Shown here in pieces: positions 3,910 to 57,167 of a stretch of DNA of 64,000 bases (position 1 is its first letter; every line of letters begins with the position of its first letter). The position numbers and the translations under genes are program-made. The stretch spans positions 6,372,501 to 6,436,500 of the forward strand of contig NZ_LT629703.1 in assembly GCF_900103365.1 (NCBI RefSeq), given 5' to 3'. The stretch is from Afipia sp. GAS231. GTDB lineage: Bacteria; Pseudomonadota; Alphaproteobacteria; Rhizobiales; Xanthobacteraceae. The notes beneath the pieces were generated by a model. That model made no database searches and was not told where the DNA came from. It worked only from the letters and a program-made list of their open reading frames with translations.

Positions 3910-3990
3910 GTCATTCCGGGATGGTGCGTTAGCACCAGACCCGGAATCTCGGGATTCCGGGTTCGATGCTTCGCATCGCCCCGGAATGAC
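3910..3990. repeat. Palindromic intergenic repeat (GTCATTCCGGGG family)
   Basis: The element opens with GTCATTCCGGG and closes with CCCCGGAATGAC. Between them are nested short hairpins (GGTGCGTTAGCACC, GATGCTTCGCATC). It fills the gap between the radical SAM gene and udgX. A diverged copy of the same family sits inside the dnaE2 coding sequence at 10552-10654. Confidence 0.85.
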
Positions 3991-3992
3991 AA

Positions 3993-5231
3993 TCAAAATC
4001 CAAATCCCATCTGCACCGCCTTCGGCTTGAACCGCGCTGCCAGCGCTTCGCCATCGAGTAGATGTCCTGGCGGCCGGTGATTACCGAGAACGATGAACGG
4101 CAGCGCCTTGTTCTTGGGAATGTTGAGCCGCGCCAGATCTTCGACGCGAATATTCGTCAGCCGGCGCGTGGCGATGATGCGTTCGACGGCTTTGGTGCCG
4201 AAGCCCGGCACGCGCAGCAGCTCTTCGCGGCTGGCGGTGGCGACGTCGAGCGGGAAACGTTCGCGATGCCGCAACGCCCAGGCGAGTTTCGGATCGATGT
4301 CGAGCGGCAGCATGCCGGCGCGCTCTTCGACGATCTCGCCGGCGTCGAAACCGTAGAACCGCATCAGCCAGTCGGCCTGATAGAGCCGGTGCTCGCGGAT
4401 CAGCGGCGGTGCGGCTAGCGGCAACGCGCGGCTGGCATCGGGGATCGGGCTGAATGCCGAATAGTACACCCGCTTGAGCCGGTAGGAGCCGTAGAGATTG
4501 GCGCTGGTGTCCAGAATGGTTTTGTCGTTGGCGGCGTCCGCACCGATGATCATCTGCGTGCTCTGGCCGGCCGGCGCAAAGCGTGGTGGCTTGGCCTTGG
4601 TCGCAGTCCTGCTGTTATCCTTGGCTTCGTCGAGTTTCAGCCGCAACCGGCCCATGGTGCGGCGGATCGCGCGGAGGTCTTTCTCCGGCGCCAGTCTGGC
4701 CAGACTGGTTTCCTCGGGCACTTCGATGTTGATGGAAAGACGGTCGGCATATTTGCCGGCCTCCGTGATCAGCGCGTCGTCGGCCTCCGGAATGGTCTTG
4801 AGATGGATGTAGCCGCGGAAGTGATGTTCTTCGCGCAGTTTTCGCGCGACACCCACCACCTGCTCCATGGTGTAGTCGGCGCTGCGAATGATGCCGGAGG
4901 AGAGAAACAAGCCTTCGATGTAATTGCGGCGGTAGAAATCGATCGTCAGCTTCACCACCTCGTCGACGGTGAAGCGGGCACGCGGCACGTTGCTGGAGGC
5001 GCGGTTGACGCAATACAAGCAATCGTAATTGCAGGCATTGGTGAGCAGCACTTTCAATAGCGAGATGCAGCGGCCGTCCGGCGCGTAGGAATGGCAGATG
5101 CCCATGCCGGGCGCGGTCGAGCCGAGGCCTTTGCCGTCGCTGGAATCCCGCTGCTCGGTGCCGCTGGAGGCGCAGGAGGCGTCGTATTTGGCGGCATCCG
5201 CCAGGATTTCCAGCTTGCGCTGCACGTCCAT
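3993..5231 (-). CDS. Putative DNA modification/repair radical SAM protein (TIGR03916-like)
   Basis: The 412-residue protein has the radical-SAM Fe-S motif C-x3-C-x2-C (C67, C71, C74, in the sequence CNYDCLYC). Near its C-terminus is a helix-hairpin-helix DNA-binding segment (LLRVPGFGTKAVERI, about 338-352). This architecture matches the family that travels with DUF4130/UdgX proteins, for which a DNA repair or modification role is proposed but no reaction is established. It is the first gene of a minus-strand pair with udgX and diverges from imuA. The LexA box in the shared 161-bp promoter region lies 83 bp upstream of the ATG. Extra cysteines near the N-terminus (C20, C46, C55) could bind another cluster. 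Confidence 0.88.
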   Translation of the reverse strand: MDVQRKLEILADAAKYDASCASSGTEQRDSSDGKGLGSTAPGMGICHSYAPDGRCISLLKVLLTNACNYDCLYCVNRASSNVPRARFTVDEVVKLTIDFYRRNYIEGLFLSSGIIRSADYTMEQVVGVARKLREEHHFRGYIHLKTIPEADDALITEAGKYADRLSINIEVPEETSLARLAPEKDLRAIRRTMGRLRLKLDEAKDNSRTATKAKPPRFAPAGQSTQMIIGADAANDKTILDTSANLYGSYRLKRVYYSAFSPIPDASRALPLAAPPLIREHRLYQADWLMRFYGFDAGEIVEERAGMLPLDIDPKLAWALRHRERFPLDVATASREELLRVPGFGTKAVERIIATRRLTNIRVEDLARLNIPKNKALPFIVLGNHRPPGHLLDGEALAARFKPKAVQMGFGF

Positions 5232-5281
5232 CCCTGAATCCCTTTGATTCCGCTCATGAATCGCTCAGGCATCAATCCCGA

Positions 5282-5328
5282 TTGACTCCCGGCGTCCTGT
5301 TAGCTTTATATTAGAACATATCATGAAC
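5282..5328 (+). promoter_or_regulatory. SOS promoter with LexA box upstream of imuA
   Basis: A perfect alphaproteobacterial LexA box, GAAC-ATATCAT-GAAC, occupies 5314-5328. It abuts or overlaps a candidate promoter with -35 TTGACT (5282-5287) and -10 TTTATA (5305-5310, 17-bp spacer), so LexA binding would cover the -10/+1 region. A further GTTC-N8-GAAC inverted repeat lies at 5346-5361. The box is shared with the divergent radical SAM gene. Confidence 0.85.
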
Positions 5329-5392
5329 AAATGAGCCAGCCGCGGGTTCATTCGAAAGAACCTGAAGGCCCAAATTCCCAGAGGAGCGGGGC

Positions 5393-6256
5393 ATGAGCAC
5401 CGCACACACCAGCACGCTTGCGCGCTTGCGCGGCAGCATCGAGCGCATCGAAACATCGGGCGATGCGCATGCGCATCACAAGGTCGCGCTCGGTCACGCC
5501 GGCGCCGACGCGACACTGCAAGGCGGTCTCGCCATGGCTGCGGTGCATGAGGTGTTTTCGGAAGGCCACCAGAGCGCGGCGGCCACCGGCTTCATCGCCG
5601 GCCTCGCCGGGCGGCTGACGCCGCGCCGGCCGCTGGTCTGGGTGCGGCAGGATTTTTCAGAACTGGAATCCGGCGCGTTGTCGATGAGTGGGCTTTGCGA
5701 GCTCGGCCTCGATCCGCGCCTGCTGGTGACCGTGCGTGCTGCCGACGCCGATGCCGCGCTACGCACCGCCGCCGACGCGCTGGCCTGCGACGCGCTCGGC
5801 GCGGTGGTGCTGGAAGTCTGGGGCGAGGCGCGGCAGCTCGATCTCGTTGCCAGCCGCAAACTCACACTGGCCGCGCAAGCCTCCGGCGTCACCGCCTTGC
5901 TGCTGCGGGTGGCGGCCACACCGCAACCTTCGACCGCGGAAACACGATGGATCGTGCGCGCGGCGCATTCGCCGCCGGGATCACCCTCAATGCCTGCGGC
6001 GCCTTGGAGTGCCTGGGGCGCGCCGGTGTTCGACGCGCAGCTGGTTCGTAACCGTCATGGCCCGGTCGGGCGGTGGATCATGGAATGGAAATGTGATGAG
6101 TGCCTTTTCAGCGAACCGGCAAGAGAACCATCAAGAGAACCGTCAAGAGAACCGTCGAGAGAACCGTCGACGTATCCTCAGCCTGTGGCTGCCACGCCTG
6201 CCCATCGACCGCATCAAGCGGCAGTTTACGCTCACGGTTTCAAGCGTAGCGCATGA
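5393..6256 (+). CDS. imuA: ImuA, SOS mutasome accessory protein
   Basis: The 287-residue protein is a RecA-like accessory of translesion synthesis, needed with ImuB and DnaE2 for damage-induced mutagenesis. Recognisable stretches include the RecA-like core (HEVFSEGHQSAAATGFIAGL, then WVRQDF) and the alphaproteobacterial C-terminal signature GRWIMEWKCDECLF. The ATG at 5393 follows AGAGGAG. After the conserved signature the protein continues with REPA and four REPS units encoded by 12-bp tandem repeats, then a Pro/His-rich tail. The last 161 bp overlap imuB in another frame. The overlap is probably normal for the family, but the REPS run looks like a local expansion. Confidence 0.9.
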   Translation: MSTAHTSTLARLRGSIERIETSGDAHAHHKVALGHAGADATLQGGLAMAAVHEVFSEGHQSAAATGFIAGLAGRLTPRRPLVWVRQDFSELESGALSMSGLCELGLDPRLLVTVRAADADAALRTAADALACDALGAVVLEVWGEARQLDLVASRKLTLAAQASGVTALLLRVAATPQPSTAETRWIVRAAHSPPGSPSMPAAPWSAWGAPVFDAQLVRNRHGPVGRWIMEWKCDECLFSEPAREPSREPSREPSREPSTYPQPVAATPAHRPHQAAVYAHGFKRSA

Positions 6257-8018
6257 GAACTCTAACGGCACGGGCAGTCGGCTCCCTCTCCCGCTTGCGG
6301 GGGAGGGCTGGGGTGGGGGTGCCGCCGCGGGTCACACCGTTCAATCGAATGGCCAAAACTCTTACGACACGAACGGTGCGCTCCCTCCCCCCTTGCGGGG
6401 GAGGGCGGGGGAGAGGGGTAAGCCACAACCACCGTCTTCGCCGCCACCCCCCTCCCTAACCTCGAGAGCGAGCTCCGCTCGCCTCGGACCCCGCAAGGGG
6501 GGAGGGAACGCGACTGCCAGCGACGTTCCCAGCGACGCGCCCATCGTCGTCATCTCCAAGCAAAACAATGCGCTGGTGATTTACGCGCTCGATGATCTCG
6601 CCGAGCGCTCCGGCCTTTCGATTGGCCTGCCGCTCGCCAATGCCCGCGCGATCTGCCCGGAATTGACGGTGTTCGATGCCGACGAGGCCGCCGACGCCAA
6701 GACGCTCAATGACATAGCCGACTGGTGCGACCGCTTCACGCCGCTGGTGGCGCTCGATCCGCCGCATGGGCTGTTCCTCGATATCACCGGCTGCGCCCAT
6801 CTGTTCGGCGGCGAGGCTGCGCTGCTGCAGGCCGTCACCAGTGCGCTGACACAACGTGGCTTTGCCGTCAGCGCGGCGATCGCCTCGACCTCCGTCTGCG
6901 CCCGCACCCTGACGCGGCATGTGTCGGGAAAAATCATCGTCGACGGCGAGGAGGCCAAGGCCGTCGCGCCGCTGCCGGTATCTGCGCTCGGTGCGGCAGA
7001 GGTCATCGCGAGTGGCCTGCGTCGCGCCGGTTTAAAAACCATCGGCGATGTCGCGTCGCGCGCGCGCCACGAGATCGCGGCAAGATTCGGCGCCGGTTTC
7101 ACCGCGCACCTGGAGCATGCGCTGGGGCAGGGCGACGCGCCGATCAGTCCGCGCAAACCGCTGCCGGATTACATCGTCGAGAAACGCTTTCCCGAACCGG
7201 TCGCCACCGAAAACGTGATCGCGATGAACTTGTCCGCGCTCGCAGCCATGCTGGTCGCGGCGATGGACAAACAGGGCAAGGGCGCGCGACGGCTGGAAGC
7301 GAGTTTTTTCCGCACCGACGGCGCGGTGCGCACGATTGCCGTCGATACCGGGCGCCCGGCGACGAAGCGTGAGGTGATCGACCGGCTGTTTCGCGAGCGG
7401 CTCGAGGCGCTCAACGATCCCCTCGATCCCGGCTTCGGTTTCGACCTCATTCGCCTGTCCGCAAGCCGCACCGAAATCATGGTGCAGCAGCAGCGCGACC
7501 TCGATGCGTCCGTGCATGACAATGACGAACTCGCCGCTTTGATCGACCGCATCGCCGCGCGCATCGGGGGCAAACGCGTCGTCGTGCATCTGCCGCAGGA
7601 CACCCATATTCCGGAACATGCGGCATTGGCGGTGCCCGCACAGCATCATCTGGCGACAGCGGTTCAGGCGGCGTGGCCCGATCGCGTCGCAAGCGAGCCG
7701 CCGCTGCGGCCGTTGCGGCTGTTCGAAAGGCCCGAGCCGATCAATGTGCCGTTTGCGACCATACCCGACGGACCGCCGCATCAATTCACCTGGCGCCGCG
7801 TCACCCACACGGTGGCGCGGGTGGAGGGACCCGAACGCATCGCCATGGAATGGTGGAAGCAGAGCGGCCGCGCGTTGACGCGGGATTATTTCCGTATCGA
7901 GGATGAAGCGGGCTTGCGTTTCTGGATCTTTCGCGACGGGCTCTATGAAAGCGAACTTAGGGACAAAGAGGGCGAACCGGTCGAGGCCAAATGGTTCGTG
8001 CACGGGCTGTTCGCATGA
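6096..8018 (+). CDS. imuB: ImuB, catalytically inactive Y-family polymerase-like mutasome subunit
   Basis: The start is set at the ATG at 6096, inside imuA, giving 640 residues. The family core is clear: ILSLWLPRLPIDRI (27-40), then DAPIVVISKQNNA (147-159), CPELTVFDAD, and LDITGCAHLFGG. ImuB has the Y-family fold without the catalytic acidic residues and links ImuA, DnaE2 and the beta clamp. The usual length is about 500-530. The excess is an inserted stretch at about 44-146, encoded by GC-rich palindromic repeats exactly between two normally adjacent core elements, and rich in Pro, Gly, Ser and Arg. Residues 8-24 are repeat-encoded (ENRQ/ENRR). The stop overlaps the dnaE2 start as ATGA, so the two are translationally coupled. 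Confidence 0.9.
   Translation: MSAFSANRQENHQENRQENRRENRRRILSLWLPRLPIDRIKRQFTLTVSSVAHENSNGTGSRLPLPLAGEGWGGGAAAGHTVQSNGQNSYDTNGALPPPLRGRAGERGKPQPPSSPPPPSLTSRASSARLGPRKGGGNATASDVPSDAPIVVISKQNNALVIYALDDLAERSGLSIGLPLANARAICPELTVFDADEAADAKTLNDIADWCDRFTPLVALDPPHGLFLDITGCAHLFGGEAALLQAVTSALTQRGFAVSAAIASTSVCARTLTRHVSGKIIVDGEEAKAVAPLPVSALGAAEVIASGLRRAGLKTIGDVASRARHEIAARFGAGFTAHLEHALGQGDAPISPRKPLPDYIVEKRFPEPVATENVIAMNLSALAAMLVAAMDKQGKGARRLEASFFRTDGAVRTIAVDTGRPATKREVIDRLFRERLEALNDPLDPGFGFDLIRLSASRTEIMVQQQRDLDASVHDNDELAALIDRIAARIGGKRVVVHLPQDTHIPEHAALAVPAQHHLATAVQAAWPDRVASEPPLRPLRLFERPEPINVPFATIPDGPPHQFTWRRVTHTVARVEGPERIAMEWWKQSGRALTRDYFRIEDEAGLRFWIFRDGLYESELRDKEGEPVEAKWFVHGLFA
6120..6167 (+). repeat. 12-bp tandem repeats in the imuA/imuB dual-coding overlap
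   Basis: Four units of CAAGAGAACCGT (one with AT at its end, one starting CG) run from 6120 to 6167. The 12-bp period keeps both frames open: ImuA reads REPS repeats while ImuB reads ENH/RQ-ENRQ-ENRR repeats. A change in copy number would alter both proteins in steps of four residues. Confidence 0.95.
6253..6507. repeat. Palindromic GC-rich repeat cluster inserted in frame in imuB
   Basis: Three related units are visible: GCTCCCTCTCCCGCTTGCGG and its G-rich continuation (6281-6319), a second copy in the same orientation (6380-6418), and an inverted copy starting CCACCCCCCTCCCTAACC and ending CCCCGCAAGGGGGGAGGGA (6444-6507). The inverted copy is interrupted by a short GC-rich palindrome. A flanking sequence resembling AACGGCACGGGCAGTCGGCT precedes both direct copies. 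Such elements are normally intergenic in this group; here they supply about 100 codons of imuB without a stop. Confidence 0.88.
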
Positions 8019-11000
8019 ACGGGCCTTTGCACATCCCCTATGCCGAGATCGGCATCACCACCAATTTCTCGTTCCTGCGCGGCGGTTCCGATCCGCGCGC
8101 CTATGTGCACGAGGCGAGCCGGCTCGGCATTGCCGCGATCGGCATTGCCGATCACAACACGTTGTCTGGGGTGGTGCGTGCTTACAAGGAACTCGACAAT
8201 CCCGAGGTCACCCACAAGCCAAAGCTTCTGATCGGCGCGCGGATCGTCTTCATCGACGGCACGCCGGATATTTTTGTTTATCCGCGCGACCGCGCCGCGT
8301 ACGGCCGGCTATGCCAGTTGCTGACCCGCGGCAAGCGCGGCGATGACATCAAGAAAATCGAAAAGGGCGAATGCCATCTGAGGTTCGATGATCTCCTGGA
8401 GTTTGCCGATGGCCAGCTTCTGGTGCTGACGCTGCCGCATCGCTTCGAGATGGCGGACGTGTTGAAAGTGCTGGAGCGCTTGAAAGCGAGCCGCGCCGAC
8501 GGGGTGTGGCTCGCCGCCAGCCTGCTCTATCGCGGCGACGACAGGCGCCGGCTGGCGCGGCTGCATCATATCGCCACCAAAGCCGGGGTGCGGCTGCTGG
8601 CCACCAACGAGGTGCTGTACCACCATCCCGCGCGCCGCCCGCTGCAGGATATTTTGACCTGTATCCGCGAGAAGACCACCATCGACGCGATCGGAAAGCG
8701 GCTGGAGGCCAATGCCGAGCGCCATCTCAAGCCGGCCCATGAAATGGCGCGGCTGTTTCGCGAGCTCCCCGAGGCGATCGCGGAAACCATGCGCTTTGCC
8801 GGCCGCATTTCTTTCTCGATGGACCAGCTCAAATACCAGTATCCGGACGAGCCGGTACCGAAGGGCAAGACCGCGCAGGGGCATCTGGAGGATCTGACCT
8901 GGGCCGGCGTCGACAAATATTTCGGCGGCGATATCAGCGCGACCTTGCGCGCGACCTTGCGCAAGGAACTCGCGCTGATCGCCGAGCTCAAATACGCGCA
9001 TTATTTTCTCACCGTGCACGACATCGTCCGCTATGCGCGGAGCGTCAACATCCTCTGCCAGGGCAGGGGCTCCGCGGCCAACTCTGCCGTCTGCTACGTG
9101 CTCGGCATCACCTCGGTCGACCCGACCAAGGTCGATCTGCTGTTCGAGCGATTCATTTCCAAGGAGCGGCTGGAGCCGCCCGACATCGACGTCGATTTCG
9201 AGCATTCGCGCCGCGAGGAGGTGATGCAGTATGTCTACCGCCGCTACGGCCGCCACCGCGCCGCGATCATTGCGACCGTCATCCACTACCGGCCGCGCTC
9301 GGCGATCCGCGATGTCGGCAAGGCGCTGGGACTGACGGAGGATGTCACCGCCGCGCTCGCCGATACCGTGTGGGGAAGCTGGGGCAAGGGCCTCAACGAG
9401 ATGCAGGTCCGGCAGGCCGGGCTCGACCCGGCCAATGCGATGGTCGAACTTGCGGTCGAACTCGCTACCGAGCTGATCGAATTTCCCCGCCATTTGTCGC
9501 AGCATGTCGGCGGCTACGTGCTGACCCAGGACCGGCTCGACAGCTATGTGCCGATCGGCAACGCCGCGATGGACGACCGCACCTTCATCGAATGGGACAA
9601 GGACGACGTCGACGCGCTCAACATGATGAAGGTCGACGTGCTGGCGCTGGGCATGCTGACCTGCATCCGCAAATGCTTTGACCTGATCGACGACCACAAG
9701 GGCCAACGCTGGGAACTCGCCACCGTCCCGCAGGACGACGAGCCGGTCTACGACATGCTGTGCCGCGGGGAATCGCTCGGCGTATTCCAGGTCGAAAGCC
9801 GCGCGCAGATGAACATGCTGCCGCGCCTGAAGCCGCGGACGTTCTACGATCTCGTCATCGAGGTCGCGATCGTGCGTCCCGGCCCGATCCAGGGCGACAT
9901 GGTGCATCCGTATCTGCGGCGGCGCAACGGCATCGACAAGGTCAGCTATCCGTCGCCGGCGCCGGAACATGGCGACAAGGATGAACTGCGCCGGGTGCTG
10001 CACAAGACGCTCGGCGTTCCCCTGTTTCAGGAACAGGCGATGCGGATCGCGATCGAAGCTGCGAAGTTCACCTCCGAGGAAGCCAACGGGCTGCGCCGTT
10101 CGATGGCGACGTTCCGCAATCTCGGCACCATCGGCAAGTTCGAAGACAAGATGATCGGCAACATGGTTGCACGCGGCTATGATCCTGAATTCGCCAATAA
10201 CTGCTTCAACCAGATCAAGGGGTTCGGCTCCTACGGTTTTCCGGAAAGCCATGCCGCGAGCTTTGCCCAGCTCGTCTATATCTCGTCATGGCTGAAGCAT
10301 TATCATCCCGACGCGTTCTGCTGCGGATTGCTCAATTCGCAGCCGATGGGCTTTTACGCGCCGGCGCAGATCGTCGGCGACGCCCGCACCAACGGCGTCG
10401 AGGTGCGCGAGATCGACGTGTCCTTTAGCTTTGCGCAGAACACGCTGGAGCAGGGGAGCGGGAAGTATTGCGCGGTGCGGCTTGGGTTTCGGCAGATCGA
10501 TGGGTTCAGATGGGTCGATCCGGATGAGGAAAGGTTGAAGCGAGTTCAAGCGTCGTTCCGGGGCGTCGCGAAAGCGACGAACCCGGAACCTCGAGATTCT
10601 CAGATGTGCAATTGCACATCTCAGTTCGATGCTACCGCATCGCCCCGGAATGACAGTGGAGAGGACGACTGGGCCGACCGCATCATCGCCGCGCGAACAC
10701 GCCGTCCGTTCACCTCGCTGGAGGATTTCGCCCGCGACACCGGCCTGCCGAAGCGCGCGCTGACCTTGTTGGCGGATGCCGATGCGTTTCGGTCCATCGG
10801 GCTTGATCGCCGCGCCGCGCTGTGGGCGGTACGGCGGCTGCCCGATGATGTGCCGTTGCCGCTGTTCGAGGTTGCCACCGCGCGCGAGCAGCCGGACGAG
10901 AACGCAAAACCGTTGCCGGAGATGCCGCTGCCGGAGCAGGTGGTCGCCGACTATCAGACGGTGCGGCTGTCGCTGAAGGGTCATCCGATGCAGTTCCTGC

Positions 11001-11524
11001 GGACGATGTTTGCCAAGGAGCGCGTCGTCACCTGCCACGAAATCAACCACCGCAACGACCGTCGCAGGGTCCGCTGCGCCGGCGTGGTGCTGGTGCGGCA
11101 GCGGCCGGGCAGCGCCAAGGGCGTCGTCTTCATGACGCTGGAGGACGAAACCGGCATCGCCAATATCGTGGTGTGGCCGAAGGTGATGGAGCAATACCGC
11201 AAGGAAGTGATGGGCGCGCGGCTCATTCTGGTCGAGGGCTATATCCAGAGCAGCCCCGAACAGGTGACGCATCTGGTGGCGCAGCGGATGTTCGACCGTT
11301 CAGGCGATCTGATCGGTCTCGCTGACGACGCGTTCATCCGCAAGCATGCCGTACCCGCCGGGCCTGCGCTGATCGAGCCGCTCAACGACGGATCTCTCAA
11401 CGACGGTCTTCTCAACGACGGGTTCCTCAACGACGACCGGCGCGATCATGCCGATGCGCCCGCGCAGAAAATCCGCCACCCGCGCAACGTTCGCATCTTG
11501 CCGCCATCCCGGGATTTTCATTGA
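8015..11524 (+). CDS. dnaE2: DnaE2 (ImuC), error-prone DNA polymerase III alpha subunit
   Basis: The ATG at 8015 overlaps the imuB stop (ATGA), giving 1169 residues against a usual 1080-1100. The order is PHP-like N-terminal domain (YAEIGITTNFSFLRGG at about 9-24), polymerase core with GRGSAANSAVCYVLGIT and the catalytic PDIDVDF (389-395, D390/D392), the fingers region ending with SYGFPESHAASFA, HhH region, and OB domain (VVFMTLEDETGIANIVVWP). DnaE2 is the replicative-type polymerase that performs lesion bypass with ImuA and ImuB. Two additions explain the extra length: residues about 846-880 come from a palindromic element, and a C-terminal run of LNDG repeats (about 1123-1142) follows the OB domain. 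Expression is expected to be SOS-induced from the imuA promoter. Confidence 0.93.
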   Translation: MNGPLHIPYAEIGITTNFSFLRGGSDPRAYVHEASRLGIAAIGIADHNTLSGVVRAYKELDNPEVTHKPKLLIGARIVFIDGTPDIFVYPRDRAAYGRLCQLLTRGKRGDDIKKIEKGECHLRFDDLLEFADGQLLVLTLPHRFEMADVLKVLERLKASRADGVWLAASLLYRGDDRRRLARLHHIATKAGVRLLATNEVLYHHPARRPLQDILTCIREKTTIDAIGKRLEANAERHLKPAHEMARLFRELPEAIAETMRFAGRISFSMDQLKYQYPDEPVPKGKTAQGHLEDLTWAGVDKYFGGDISATLRATLRKELALIAELKYAHYFLTVHDIVRYARSVNILCQGRGSAANSAVCYVLGITSVDPTKVDLLFERFISKERLEPPDIDVDFEHSRREEVMQYVYRRYGRHRAAIIATVIHYRPRSAIRDVGKALGLTEDVTAALADTVWGSWGKGLNEMQVRQAGLDPANAMVELAVELATELIEFPRHLSQHVGGYVLTQDRLDSYVPIGNAAMDDRTFIEWDKDDVDALNMMKVDVLALGMLTCIRKCFDLIDDHKGQRWELATVPQDDEPVYDMLCRGESLGVFQVESRAQMNMLPRLKPRTFYDLVIEVAIVRPGPIQGDMVHPYLRRRNGIDKVSYPSPAPEHGDKDELRRVLHKTLGVPLFQEQAMRIAIEAAKFTSEEANGLRRSMATFRNLGTIGKFEDKMIGNMVARGYDPEFANNCFNQIKGFGSYGFPESHAASFAQLVYISSWLKHYHPDAFCCGLLNSQPMGFYAPAQIVGDARTNGVEVREIDVSFSFAQNTLEQGSGKYCAVRLGFRQIDGFRWVDPDEERLKRVQASFRGVAKATNPEPRDSQMCNCTSQFDATASPRNDSGEDDWADRIIAARTRRPFTSLEDFARDTGLPKRALTLLADADAFRSIGLDRRAALWAVRRLPDDVPLPLFEVATAREQPDENAKPLPEMPLPEQVVADYQTVRLSLKGHPMQFLRTMFAKERVVTCHEINHRNDRRRVRCAGVVLVRQRPGSAKGVVFMTLEDETGIANIVVWPKVMEQYRKEVMGARLILVEGYIQSSPEQVTHLVAQRMFDRSGDLIGLADDAFIRKHAVPAGPALIEPLNDGSLNDGLLNDGFLNDDRRDHADAPAQKIRHPRNVRILPPSRDFH
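10552..10654. repeat. Palindromic element inside dnaE2 (same family as 3910-3990)
   Basis: It begins GTCGTTCCGGGG and ends CCCCGGAATGAC, matching the ends of the intergenic element at 3910-3990, and contains internal palindromes (TCGCGAAAGCGA, AGATGTGCAATTGCACATCT). It is read through in the dnaE2 frame and codes for about 35 residues between RLKR and EDDWADRIIAAR, a spot where DnaE2 proteins normally have only a short loop. Confidence 0.88.
11381..11440 (+). repeat. 15-bp tandem repeats at the dnaE2 3' end
   Basis: Four 15-bp units starting CTCAACGACG encode LNDGS, LNDGL, LNDGF and LNDDR after the OB domain. The invariant first 10 bp with a variable last 5 bp suggests an older expansion. 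The period is a multiple of three, so copy-number change keeps the frame. Confidence 0.93.
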
Positions 11525-11531
11525 ACCAGCC

Positions 11532-11612
11532 CTAGAGGCTGACGATGTAGGCGCTCATGGCCAGAAGAAACACCAGGCTGCCGGCCATGATGGCGAAGAA
11601 TAATTTGTCCAA
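11532..11612 (-). CDS. Possible very small membrane peptide
   Basis: A 26-codon frame from a TTG at 11612 reads LDKLFFAIMAG and then a hydrophobic Leu/Val/Ala run, a single membrane segment. GGAG lies 8-9 nt upstream. The frame is open further upstream (to about 11720), but that part has no protein-like composition. It resembles tiny single-pass peptides common near the ends of other genes in this genus. I cannot assign a function, and it may be chance. Confidence 0.35.
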   Translation of the reverse strand: MDKLFFAIMAGSLVFLLAMSAYIVSL

Positions 11613-11823
11613 GCGATCGACTCCGAAAGCATACCAACACGGGAGTCGATTAGAAGATTTTGGCTGTGTCGATTCTTTGACACTCGTCAGGCCAAGTTCC
11701 GGCAAGTCGTCAGGCATCAAGGCGGCAAGGCGACTTTTTCGAAATATTATCGCAAATTGCGCGCATCACGATGCGCGGCGAAAAGCCGGTATGACGCGGA
11801 GAGGAGGAAGGGGAGATGGCGTC

Positions 11824-12096
11824 TCAGCTCAGGAATTTCACGCCGTAGGTCCGGCCGCGGCGCCAGACCACCTCGCAGGACTGACGCTTCGGACGCTCCG
11901 GCATCACAGCCATCACGAAGTTGTCCCTGATATCGATGGCGGCGTCGGTCATGATCTTGGCGCCGCCCGGTGAGACATCCAGGACGTAGCATTCAATTCG
12001 GGTTATGCCGTCATCGCGCGTGAACCAGGCCGGCCGCTTGTTCATCTGGCGTCGCGGTTCGCGCTGTGTCTTTGTCCGCAGTTCATCAACAGCCAT
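11824..12096 (-). CDS. PilZ domain protein
   Basis: The 90-residue protein is a single PilZ domain, usually a receptor for cyclic di-GMP. The N-terminal Arg motif (REPRRQ, about 12-17) and the DVSPGG motif (about 40-45) that contact the ligand in the family are both present. The hydrophobic beta-strand pattern after the motif (FVMAVMPER, CEVVWRRG, YGVKFL) fits a six-stranded barrel. It has no partner domain, so it would act as an adaptor. A diguanylate cyclase-like gene lies elsewhere in this window (37788-38930), but no direct link is visible. Confidence 0.85.
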   Translation of the reverse strand: MAVDELRTKTQREPRRQMNKRPAWFTRDDGITRIECYVLDVSPGGAKIMTDAAIDIRDNFVMAVMPERPKRQSCEVVWRRGRTYGVKFLS

Positions 12097-55477: not shown

Positions 55478-57100
55478 ATGGCGACCTCCGATAACAAGAC
55501 GGCCGATACCGACGAGAAGATTTTTATCGGCAAGGGCGAGGAAGCCGCCTGGCTGACGCTCGCGCTCGCCAATCGGCACGGTCTTGTCACCGGCGCGACC
55601 GGAACCGGCAAGACGGTGTCGCTGCAGGTGATGGCGGAAGGGTTTGCGCGTGCCGGCGTTCCCGTCTTCGCCGCCGACATCAAGGGCGACCTCTCCGGGA
55701 TCTCCGAAGTCGGCGAGGCCAAGGACTTTATCTTGAAGCGGGCCGGCGAGATGGGGCTGAATTTCCAGCCCGATCAGTTCTCGACCGTGTTCTGGGACGT
55801 GTTCGGCGAGCAGGGCCACCCGGTCCGCGCCACCGTCACCGAAATGGGGCCGCTATTGCTGTCCCGGATGCTCGATCTCAACGACGTGCAGGAAGGCGTG
55901 CTCAACGTCGCATTCCGTGTCGCGGACGAAAGCGGCCTGACGCTGATCGACATGAAGGATATGCGGGCGCTGCTCGACGCCATCGTGCCCGATACCAGCA
56001 AGAGGGGCCCCGACGACGGCGAGGACCCATTGGCGTCGATCCGGAAGGCCGCGCAGGGCTACGGCAACGTCACCAAGGCGACCGTCGGCACCATTCAGCG
56101 TCAACTTCTGGTGCTGGAAAACCAGGGCGGCGCGAAATTCTTCGGCGAGCCGGCGCTGACGCTGAAGGATTTCATGAGAACCGACAGCGACGGCCGCGGC
56201 ATGGTCAATATCCTGGTCGCCGACAAGCTGATGCAGAGCCCGCGGCTCTACGCCACCTTCCTGTTGTGGATGCTGTCGGAGCTGTTCGAGGAATTGCCGG
56301 AGGCCGGCGATCTGCCGAAGCCGAAACTGGTGTTCTTTTTCGATGAGGCGCATCTGCTGTTCACCGACGCGCCGAAGGCTTTGATGGACAAGATCGAGCA
56401 GGTGGTCCGCCTGATCCGCTCCAAGGGCGTCGGCGTCTATTTCGTCACGCAGAATCCGATCGACGTGCCCGACAAAGTGCTCTCCCAGATGGGCAACCGC
56501 GTCCAGCATGCGCTGCGCGCCTTCACCCCGCGCGACCAGAAGGCGGTCCAGGCGGCGGCACAGACCTTCCGGCCCAACCCGAAGCTCGACACCGCCCGCG
56601 TCATCATGGAGCTCGGCAAAGGCGAGGCGCTGGTGTCGTTCCTGGAAGGCGGCGGCACGCCGGCGATGGTCGAACGCATCATGGTCCGGCCGCCCTCGGC
56701 GCGGATCGGGCCGATCACGCCCGAGGAGCGCAAGGCGATCATGGACAACAGCCCGGTGAAGGGCAAATACGACACCGCCATCGACGCCGAGTCCGCTTAC
56801 GAGATGATCCAGAAGCGCATCGCCGGGACGGCGGCGCATCCGGATGACGGATCGGCCGGCGGTGGCGGCGGTATTCTCGGCCAGATCGGTTCGATCGTCG
56901 GCACCATCTTCGGCACCAACGTTTCGCGCGGCAGGATGTCGACCGGCCAGATCATCGCGAGAAATGTCACCCGCAGCGTCACCAACAAGGTGGTCGGCGG
57001 CGTCGTGGCCGATCTCGGCAAGTCGGTCGGCGGTGCGCTCGGCGGTTCGGTCGGACGCGCGCTGGTGCGCGGCGCGCTCGGCGGGCTGCTGCGGCGCTAA
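55478..57100 (+). CDS. HerA-like helicase/ATPase (DUF853 family)
   Basis: The ATG at 55478 is best spaced from GAAGAGG; a GTG three bases upstream is an alternative. The 540-residue protein has Walker A GATGTGKT (39-46), Walker B LVFFFDEAHLLF (about 282-293) and an Arg-containing TQNPIDVPDKVLSQMGNRVQ sensor region, typical of the HerA/FtsK superfamily as seen in E. coli YjgR. A glycine-rich C-terminus (GGGGGILGQIGSIVG onward) with hydrophobic Gly-zipper-like repeats could associate with membranes. No NurA nuclease gene is beside it, so a helicase role with NurA is unsupported. The actual substrate is unknown. Confidence 0.9.
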   Translation: MATSDNKTADTDEKIFIGKGEEAAWLTLALANRHGLVTGATGTGKTVSLQVMAEGFARAGVPVFAADIKGDLSGISEVGEAKDFILKRAGEMGLNFQPDQFSTVFWDVFGEQGHPVRATVTEMGPLLLSRMLDLNDVQEGVLNVAFRVADESGLTLIDMKDMRALLDAIVPDTSKRGPDDGEDPLASIRKAAQGYGNVTKATVGTIQRQLLVLENQGGAKFFGEPALTLKDFMRTDSDGRGMVNILVADKLMQSPRLYATFLLWMLSELFEELPEAGDLPKPKLVFFFDEAHLLFTDAPKALMDKIEQVVRLIRSKGVGVYFVTQNPIDVPDKVLSQMGNRVQHALRAFTPRDQKAVQAAAQTFRPNPKLDTARVIMELGKGEALVSFLEGGGTPAMVERIMVRPPSARIGPITPEERKAIMDNSPVKGKYDTAIDAESAYEMIQKRIAGTAAHPDDGSAGGGGGILGQIGSIVGTIFGTNVSRGRMSTGQIIARNVTRSVTNKVVGGVVADLGKSVGGALGGSVGRALVRGALGGLLRR

Positions 57101-57157
57101 AAGCGTTTCCAAGCGAAGTGGAAGCCGGTTCGCGTGAAGAAAACGCGTCAAACCAAA
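57101..57157. repeat. Dispersed repeat (ACGCGTTTTCTT family, reverse orientation)
   Basis: AAGCGTTTCCAAGCGAAGTG, GAAGCCGGTTCGCGTGAAG and AAAACGCGTCAAACCAAAA match the reverse-oriented copy at 34910-34962. It ends about 10 bp before the ATG of the following gene, leaving no room for a strong ribosome-binding site. Confidence 0.85.
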
Positions 57158-57167
57158 ATTGGACTCT

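Follow-up and report, generated by a model that had tools for sequence, protein, structure and literature searches.

In-frame palindromes in coding genes and REPs in DnaE2 are already known, and the portions of the sources drawn on here describe several systems close to the present one. The GTAG/CGTC REPs of PMC3733652 (2013) are small dispersed palindromes, often in opposed pairs; intragenic copies are reported there in frame in replication and repair genes, including DnaE2, and mutator effects of copies in repair genes are speculated upon. Rickettsia palindromic elements (RPE) are summarised in PMC10969869, and WPE-like in-frame insertions occur in the Wolbachia genes addA, addB, and priA (PMC4224334). 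In Bradyrhizobium, the repeats Br-REP1 and Br-REP2 were defined from 3' UTRs and intergenic regions (PMC5082802, 2016).

Here we describe palindromic inserts in imuB. Like the RPE and the Wolbachia elements, the insert consists of palindromes placed in frame within a functional coding gene, and the initial annotation of this DNA aptly compared it to the Rickettsia elements; the genus is a different one, and the likeness rests on the mode of insertion, not on sequence. The same features recall the GTAG/CGTC REPs, from which the repeat family in imuB, here called family G, differs in having no tag in the copies checked. The dnaE2 insert of the same operon aligns with both published Br-REP consensus sequences, whereas the imuB insert belongs to a different family.

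The remark in the initial annotation that no such element had been described in a mutasome gene was too strong, since REPs in DnaE2 genes are reported in PMC3733652. The string "imu" has no occurrence in the main text of that paper, whose target-gene list sits in a supplement. Titles and abstract openings on imuB palindromes or Bradyrhizobium intragenic repeats yielded no report of palindromic inserts in imuB, supplements and subscription papers lying outside that search. What is new is imuB as a target and the recurrent, genus-wide turnover of occupants at one site, of which the part of PMC3733652 drawn on here gives no description. A defined protein site is re-occupied across a genus by dispersed palindromes, outside Rickettsia and Wolbachia, in a gene still under purifying selection.

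The imuA-imuB-dnaE2 locus and its insert

The window, that is, the whole stretch of 64,000 nt analysed here, comes from a 7.58-Mb genome assembled as one contig and 99.99% complete. Its nearest named matches are Bradyrhizobium. It carries imuA, imuB, and dnaE2 head to tail, each gene overlapping the next:

5314..5328, + strand: candidate SOS (LexA) box GAAC-N7-GAAC upstream of imuA (sequence match)
5393..6256, + strand: imuA (open reading frame; NCBIfam ImuA match of 37.9 bits, under the cut-off of 150)
6096..8018, + strand: imuB, a Y-family-like mutasome subunit of 640 aa (open reading frame; Pfam IMS over cut-off)
7991..11524, + strand: dnaE2, error-prone DNA polymerase in an operon with imuB (NCBIfam PRK05672, 1563 bits, cut-off 939)

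Because its family match is weak, imuA owes its name partly to position. Its final 161 nt are shared with the imuB reading frame. ImuB has Y-family domains (Pfam IMS and IMS_C, both over cut-off), its operon includes imuA and dnaE2, and close homologues are named ImuB; as judged from sequence, the gene is the imuB of an ImuA-ImuB-DnaE2 mutasome, with a putative role in damage-induced mutagenesis. The IMS match begins at residue 147 (profile position 20), just past the insert. The motif GAAC-N7-GAAC, which we take to be that of the SOS (LexA) box, is also found upstream at three other loci (L091, L092, and L038).

Tandem repeats occur elsewhere in the operon. In the imuA/imuB overlap (6110-6169), a 12-nt unit is repeated four times, reading as QENR-like peptide in imuB and REPS in imuA; the near relative L091 has one such unit and L092 has zero. 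Near the 3' end of dnaE2 (11381-11435) there are 15-nt tandem repeats, LNDG-type when read.

The insert itself is made up as follows:

6257..6530 (about), + strand: whole palindromic insert in the imuB frame (repeats, BLAST, allele comparison, folding)
6278..6330, + strand: type B unit (family G), core palindrome 6282-6307 (repeat and BLAST evidence)
6376..6511, + strand: type A, two opposed family G units (inverted repeat; 92% identity over 136 nt to the imuB insert of locus L012)
6462..6488, no strand assigned: short GC-rich palindrome lying within the type A pair, reading RASSARLG (sequence)

It begins immediately 3' of the imuA stop codon (6254-6256) and is flanked in ImuB by RLPIDRIK before and DAPIVVISK after. 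The type A arms, 6378-6400 and 6489-6511, are 96% complementary and spaced 88 nt apart, and the peptide of the nested palindrome has related SELRSSR forms in other alleles. The initial annotation had placed two direct units and one inverted unit at 6253..6507 and made no mention of the imuA stop at the left edge; the count of three stands, and the span is in fact about 6257-6530. As that annotation also held, the imuB frame stays open through all three GC-rich palindromic units, with no break from its ATG at 6096 to its stop at 8018.

Among the six frames of 6257-6530, the imuB frame alone is open. For 30 dispersed copies, 44 of 180 frames were open across centred 259-nt stretches and 111 of 180 across the copies themselves; an open frame by itself is weak evidence. 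Treated as RNA, 6257-6530 has a predicted fold with z = -6.07, and none of 200 shuffles was equally stable.

Family G is a dispersed palindromic repeat

The insert had been read as a cluster of mobile palindromic repeats, and genome-wide searches show that these repeats are dispersed. Its core pattern, with up to 3 mismatches allowed, matched 49 times in the 7.58-Mb genome, and the reversed control gave 0 matches. BLAST with the insert hit at least 67 places, which merge to at least 40 sites (at least 39 besides imuB); these counts are lower bounds, as 40 candidates were scored in each of the repeat searches with the imuB insert (40 of 64) and the dnaE2 insert. In being a short dispersed palindrome with many copies and an opposed pair, family G resembles the REPs.

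For exact cores in the loci fetched from this genome, the eight most frequent 4-nt sequences next to the core, on each side, included neither a GTAG nor a CGTC (TGTC, CCTC) tag. A search for RAYT transposases of the GTAG type gave zero Y1_Tnp matches in the genome, and the family turned up in 5 of 14 controls; on this result we rejected the idea that a RAYT encoded in the genome mobilises the repeats. Rfam returned nothing within window positions 5000-12000 up to an E value of 0.1. We kept family G out of the named REP, RPE, and Wolbachia families because the tag was not seen in the checked copies and a RAYT was not detectable.

The site is filled in many imuB alleles

We collected 168 imuB loci: 78 from named genomes, 29 from a genus search, 60 fetched, and that of the window. 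Extraction succeeded for 154 of these, giving 116 distinct alleles. The 14 loci left out comprise eight with part of the gene missing from the locus or contig (among them L078 and L083, which show in-frame inserts), two copies of an allele with Ns within the insert (L052 = L144), two copies of one allele with a frame broken inside the insert (L088 = L145), one further such allele (L141), and L160, which is intact and empty but was not caught by the extraction pattern. The two distinct broken alleles reflect lost function or sequencing error.

At the imuB site, 69 of the 116 distinct alleles carry an insert by peptide reading and 47 are empty; these figures are not a genus frequency, because the loci were chosen as best matches to an insert-bearing ImuB (78 named, from the best 80 of 84, and 89 of the 194 further genomes covered by the genus search, the majority of them high-ranking hits). 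The filled alleles comprise 28 of type B, 21 of type A, 8 with both (A+B), 10 of a family F (KAFSSE...), one of a further family (L067), and one of unclear kind (L085). All 69 keep the frame open.

It follows that the insert is not strain-specific, a possibility that the initial annotation had proposed to check in relatives and that we reject. The same annotation held that ImuB normally runs nearly directly across this junction, which is true of Afipia and some Bradyrhizobium, where only a short spacer occupies the site, but not of the filled majority of our alleles. It had also anticipated the objection that close relatives might share a loop of non-repeat sequence; the objection fails, as the majority of filled loops likewise consist of repeats, whose kind varies.

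A library of repeats taken from elsewhere, and independent of the peptide patterns (38 G sites, 58 Br-REP pieces, and 9 F pieces), matched the imuB loop in 67 of 116 alleles (57 G and 10 F). The same search gave 0/116 matches in imuA and 0/116 in the remainder of imuB. Between the imuB stop and the dnaE2 loop it matched in 7/116, all F: four loci have a copy immediately past the imuB stop, four have one roughly 100 codons inside dnaE2, and one locus belongs to both groups. Family F is dispersed in four genomes; counting the copies in imuB, it has at least 42 places in the window's genome and 10, 3, and 8 in the remaining three. One F copy lies in the window at 57100-57158 (genome 6429600-6429658). 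At least three unrelated palindromic families, namely, G, F, and that of L067, have filled the imuB site.

The imuA stop ends 44 to 71 nt past the LPR anchor of imuB, 56 nt being the value in 75/116 alleles, and in a rough scan most inserts began at or after this stop, with three beginning up to about 45 nt earlier. The palindromes therefore lie in the short interval that separates the dual-coding overlap from the conserved ImuB strand that follows.

Occupants turn over at the site

Changes of occupant were counted on an ImuB core tree from which the insert columns had been omitted and which was built by a quick method from the same gene. Occupant states need at least 37 changes on this tree (shuffled mean, 60.9; 0/200 shuffles as low), and presence or absence alone needs at least 19. 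Well-supported branches by themselves force 11 changes each for absence and for B, 10 for A, 6 for F, and 4 for A+B. F and A+B show no clear clustering on the tree (120/500 and 77/500 shuffles as low, respectively). Some of these state changes may be losses or exchange instead of insertions. The route presumably began with a small number of seeding insertions, with nesting, deletion, and recombination coming later.

The two nearest rows to the window, L091 and L092, carry type B only. The type A pair of the window is best matched by the L012 imuB insert listed above, and its best copy in its own genome is 90% identical over 82 nt. Its better match at another species' imuB argues that inheritance, or exchange at the locus, is the probable origin of the pair. 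Fresh transposition from the pool of copies in its own genome is disfavored, as the pair is matched most closely by imuB inserts from other species. With the type B unit, matches among imuB inserts and in its own genome are about equally good and do not indicate an origin. The middle of the A pair is variable across species, with KPQAP-, GGNGSA-, TTDAGVC-, and HEHRP-like variants.

Palindrome-filled loops in other genes

The neighboring polymerase gene also has a filled loop:

10540..10665, + strand: in-frame palindrome cluster in dnaE2, Br-REP2/Br-REP1/Br-REP2-like (inverted repeats; consensus alignment; at least 58 places in its own genome)

The alignments that relate this insert to the Br-REPs are local, covering 17 nt for Br-REP1 and about 40 nt with gaps for Br-REP2. 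The site in dnaE2 was readable in 64 of 116 loci, and the library matched the loop in 51 of these, with 0/64 matches past the loop. Some of the other 13 loci have long inserts of further kinds (L019, L063, and L064), and nine have 30 to 44 residues. A Br-REP2-like copy also lies at 3944-3991 of the window, near the 3' ends of two upstream genes.

Among 40 family G sites surveyed in the window's genome, the intragenic ones were imuB and a cisplatin damage response ATP-dependent DNA ligase (L229; genome 4334283-4336190, minus strand), in which the insert is also in frame; L201, which lacks a Pfam match, is a weak extra candidate. Among 41 Br-REP sites, dnaE2 was the sole intragenic one. The codon-usage survey requires 25 codons on both sides, so that imuB, whose upstream flank overlaps imuA, was not flagged and was counted by homology. 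Because the two surveys had started from imuB and dnaE2, the ligase alone among the three intragenic sites was found blind.

In 61 genomes of the genus, this one included, the ligase matched through the insert in 25, had flanks abutting without it in 27, and was intermediate in nine. Within the 30 best-scoring ligase loci, 26 were readable, with 23 long inserts, one intermediate, and two empty.

Type B peptides occur in frame in an indolepyruvate ferredoxin oxidoreductase family gene of three relatives (L212, L213, and L214), and the phenomenon is therefore not limited to repair genes; a pure repair-gene bias is weakened by these cases. Codon usage was also examined in two sets of long open frames that carry A or B peptides in relatives (17 and 6 regions among the matches listed); the three oxidoreductase cases aside, none looked coding on both sides.

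A probable passenger loop in ImuB and its alternatives

Our preferred explanation, to which we give a probability of about three in four, is that the insert is a translated, nearly neutral passenger loop at a tolerant site that dispersed palindromes have occupied repeatedly. The landing place is the short, poorly conserved spacer between the conserved ImuB N-terminal motif LWLPRLPIDRIKR and the conserved strand VVVAKQNNA, directly 3' of the imuA stop, and the insert would form an internal ImuB loop of about 90 residues. The loop sequence is not conserved; the open frame and the ImuB flanks are. Unrelated families have occupied the site in different lineages, and occupants keep changing, presumably as units insert, nest, or are deleted, and probably also through recombination with copies elsewhere. 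Neutral tolerance by itself leaves the scarcity of other target genes unexplained.

Codon positions speak to the freedom of the peptide. In 14 independent pairs, limited to those with alignable inserts at least 85% identical, differences at codon positions 1, 2, and 3 numbered 88, 80, and 104 over 894 insert codons and 306, 195, and 1,136 over 6,496 core codons. By these counts the insert peptide appears nearly unconstrained while the imuB core is constrained; the slight third-position excess in the insert makes a weak constraint possible. A loop-specific function is unsupported, because the peptide has no clear sequence constraint.

That near-absence of constraint weighs against the idea that the insert is itself selected, tuning the mutasome either through contacts of the ImuB loop with ImuA, DnaE2, or the beta clamp or through an mRNA hairpin that slows imuB translation, so that changes of occupant would reset a mutation-rate dial. 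The strong predicted RNA fold fits such a role, as do the loops in two subunits of one mutasome, the similar loop in a damage-response ligase, and the mutator effects speculated for REPs in repair genes in the part of PMC3733652 drawn on here. Near relatives, however, have unrelated families or empty alleles, and a metabolic gene is also a target; we consider selection for the insert unlikely. It is similarly doubtful that the error-prone and damage repair genes of Bradyrhizobium (imuB, dnaE2, and the cisplatin-response ligase) hold loops that unrelated palindromes prefer, beyond merely being tolerated there. If they do, mobile repeats would be repeatedly rebuilding mutasome subunits, and the mutation rate would be affected. 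Relatives include empty, A, B, A+B, and F alleles, and the effect of the insert on the mutasome is therefore directly testable in natural or isogenic pairs.

In an AlphaFold model of the ImuB of the window, the insert (residues 52-149) is flanked by a helix and a strand and is modelled as coil with very low confidence, which fits a loop, presumably surface exposed; since the mean pLDDT is 58 both here and in the model of an empty relative, the two models do not establish exposure.

The passenger-loop explanation presupposes that ribosomes cross the insert. A start inside or after it, leaving the insert as an untranslated leader and costing ImuB a short N-terminal part, matches two public records, P0077 (start inside the insert) and P0051 (start just before the VVVAK strand), yet P0020 is annotated with the complete N-terminus and all filled alleles among the 116 keep the frame open. 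The N-terminal substitution pattern disfavors such a start further. In the 18-codon imuB segment before the insert, 68 carriers show 107 changes silent in imuB only versus 6 silent in imuA only (41 possible each), and 33 empty alleles show 63 versus 5, where all counts are of alleles and not of independent events, with outgroups left out. In carriers, this pattern indicates that the segment upstream of the insert serves as imuB, not imuA, and a ribosome using it has to cross the insert before the conserved core. Purifying selection thus acts on both flanks; from that on the N-terminus in carriers we infer that the insert is very probably translated, and we regard a downstream start as highly improbable.

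A pseudogene or an assembly error at this stretch is scarcely credible: the frame is broken within the insert in some relatives, but the core is under purifying selection in carriers, the window's imuB is intact to its end in a nearly complete single-contig genome, and inserts occur at the same site in separate assemblies of many species.

Public gene calls can put the ImuB start inside or past such an insert, as in P0077 and P0051, which makes these inserts easy to overlook. Among the same records, P0062 bears the label Leptospira interrogans and shares 87% identity with Bradyrhizobium ImuB; it may come from a contaminated assembly.
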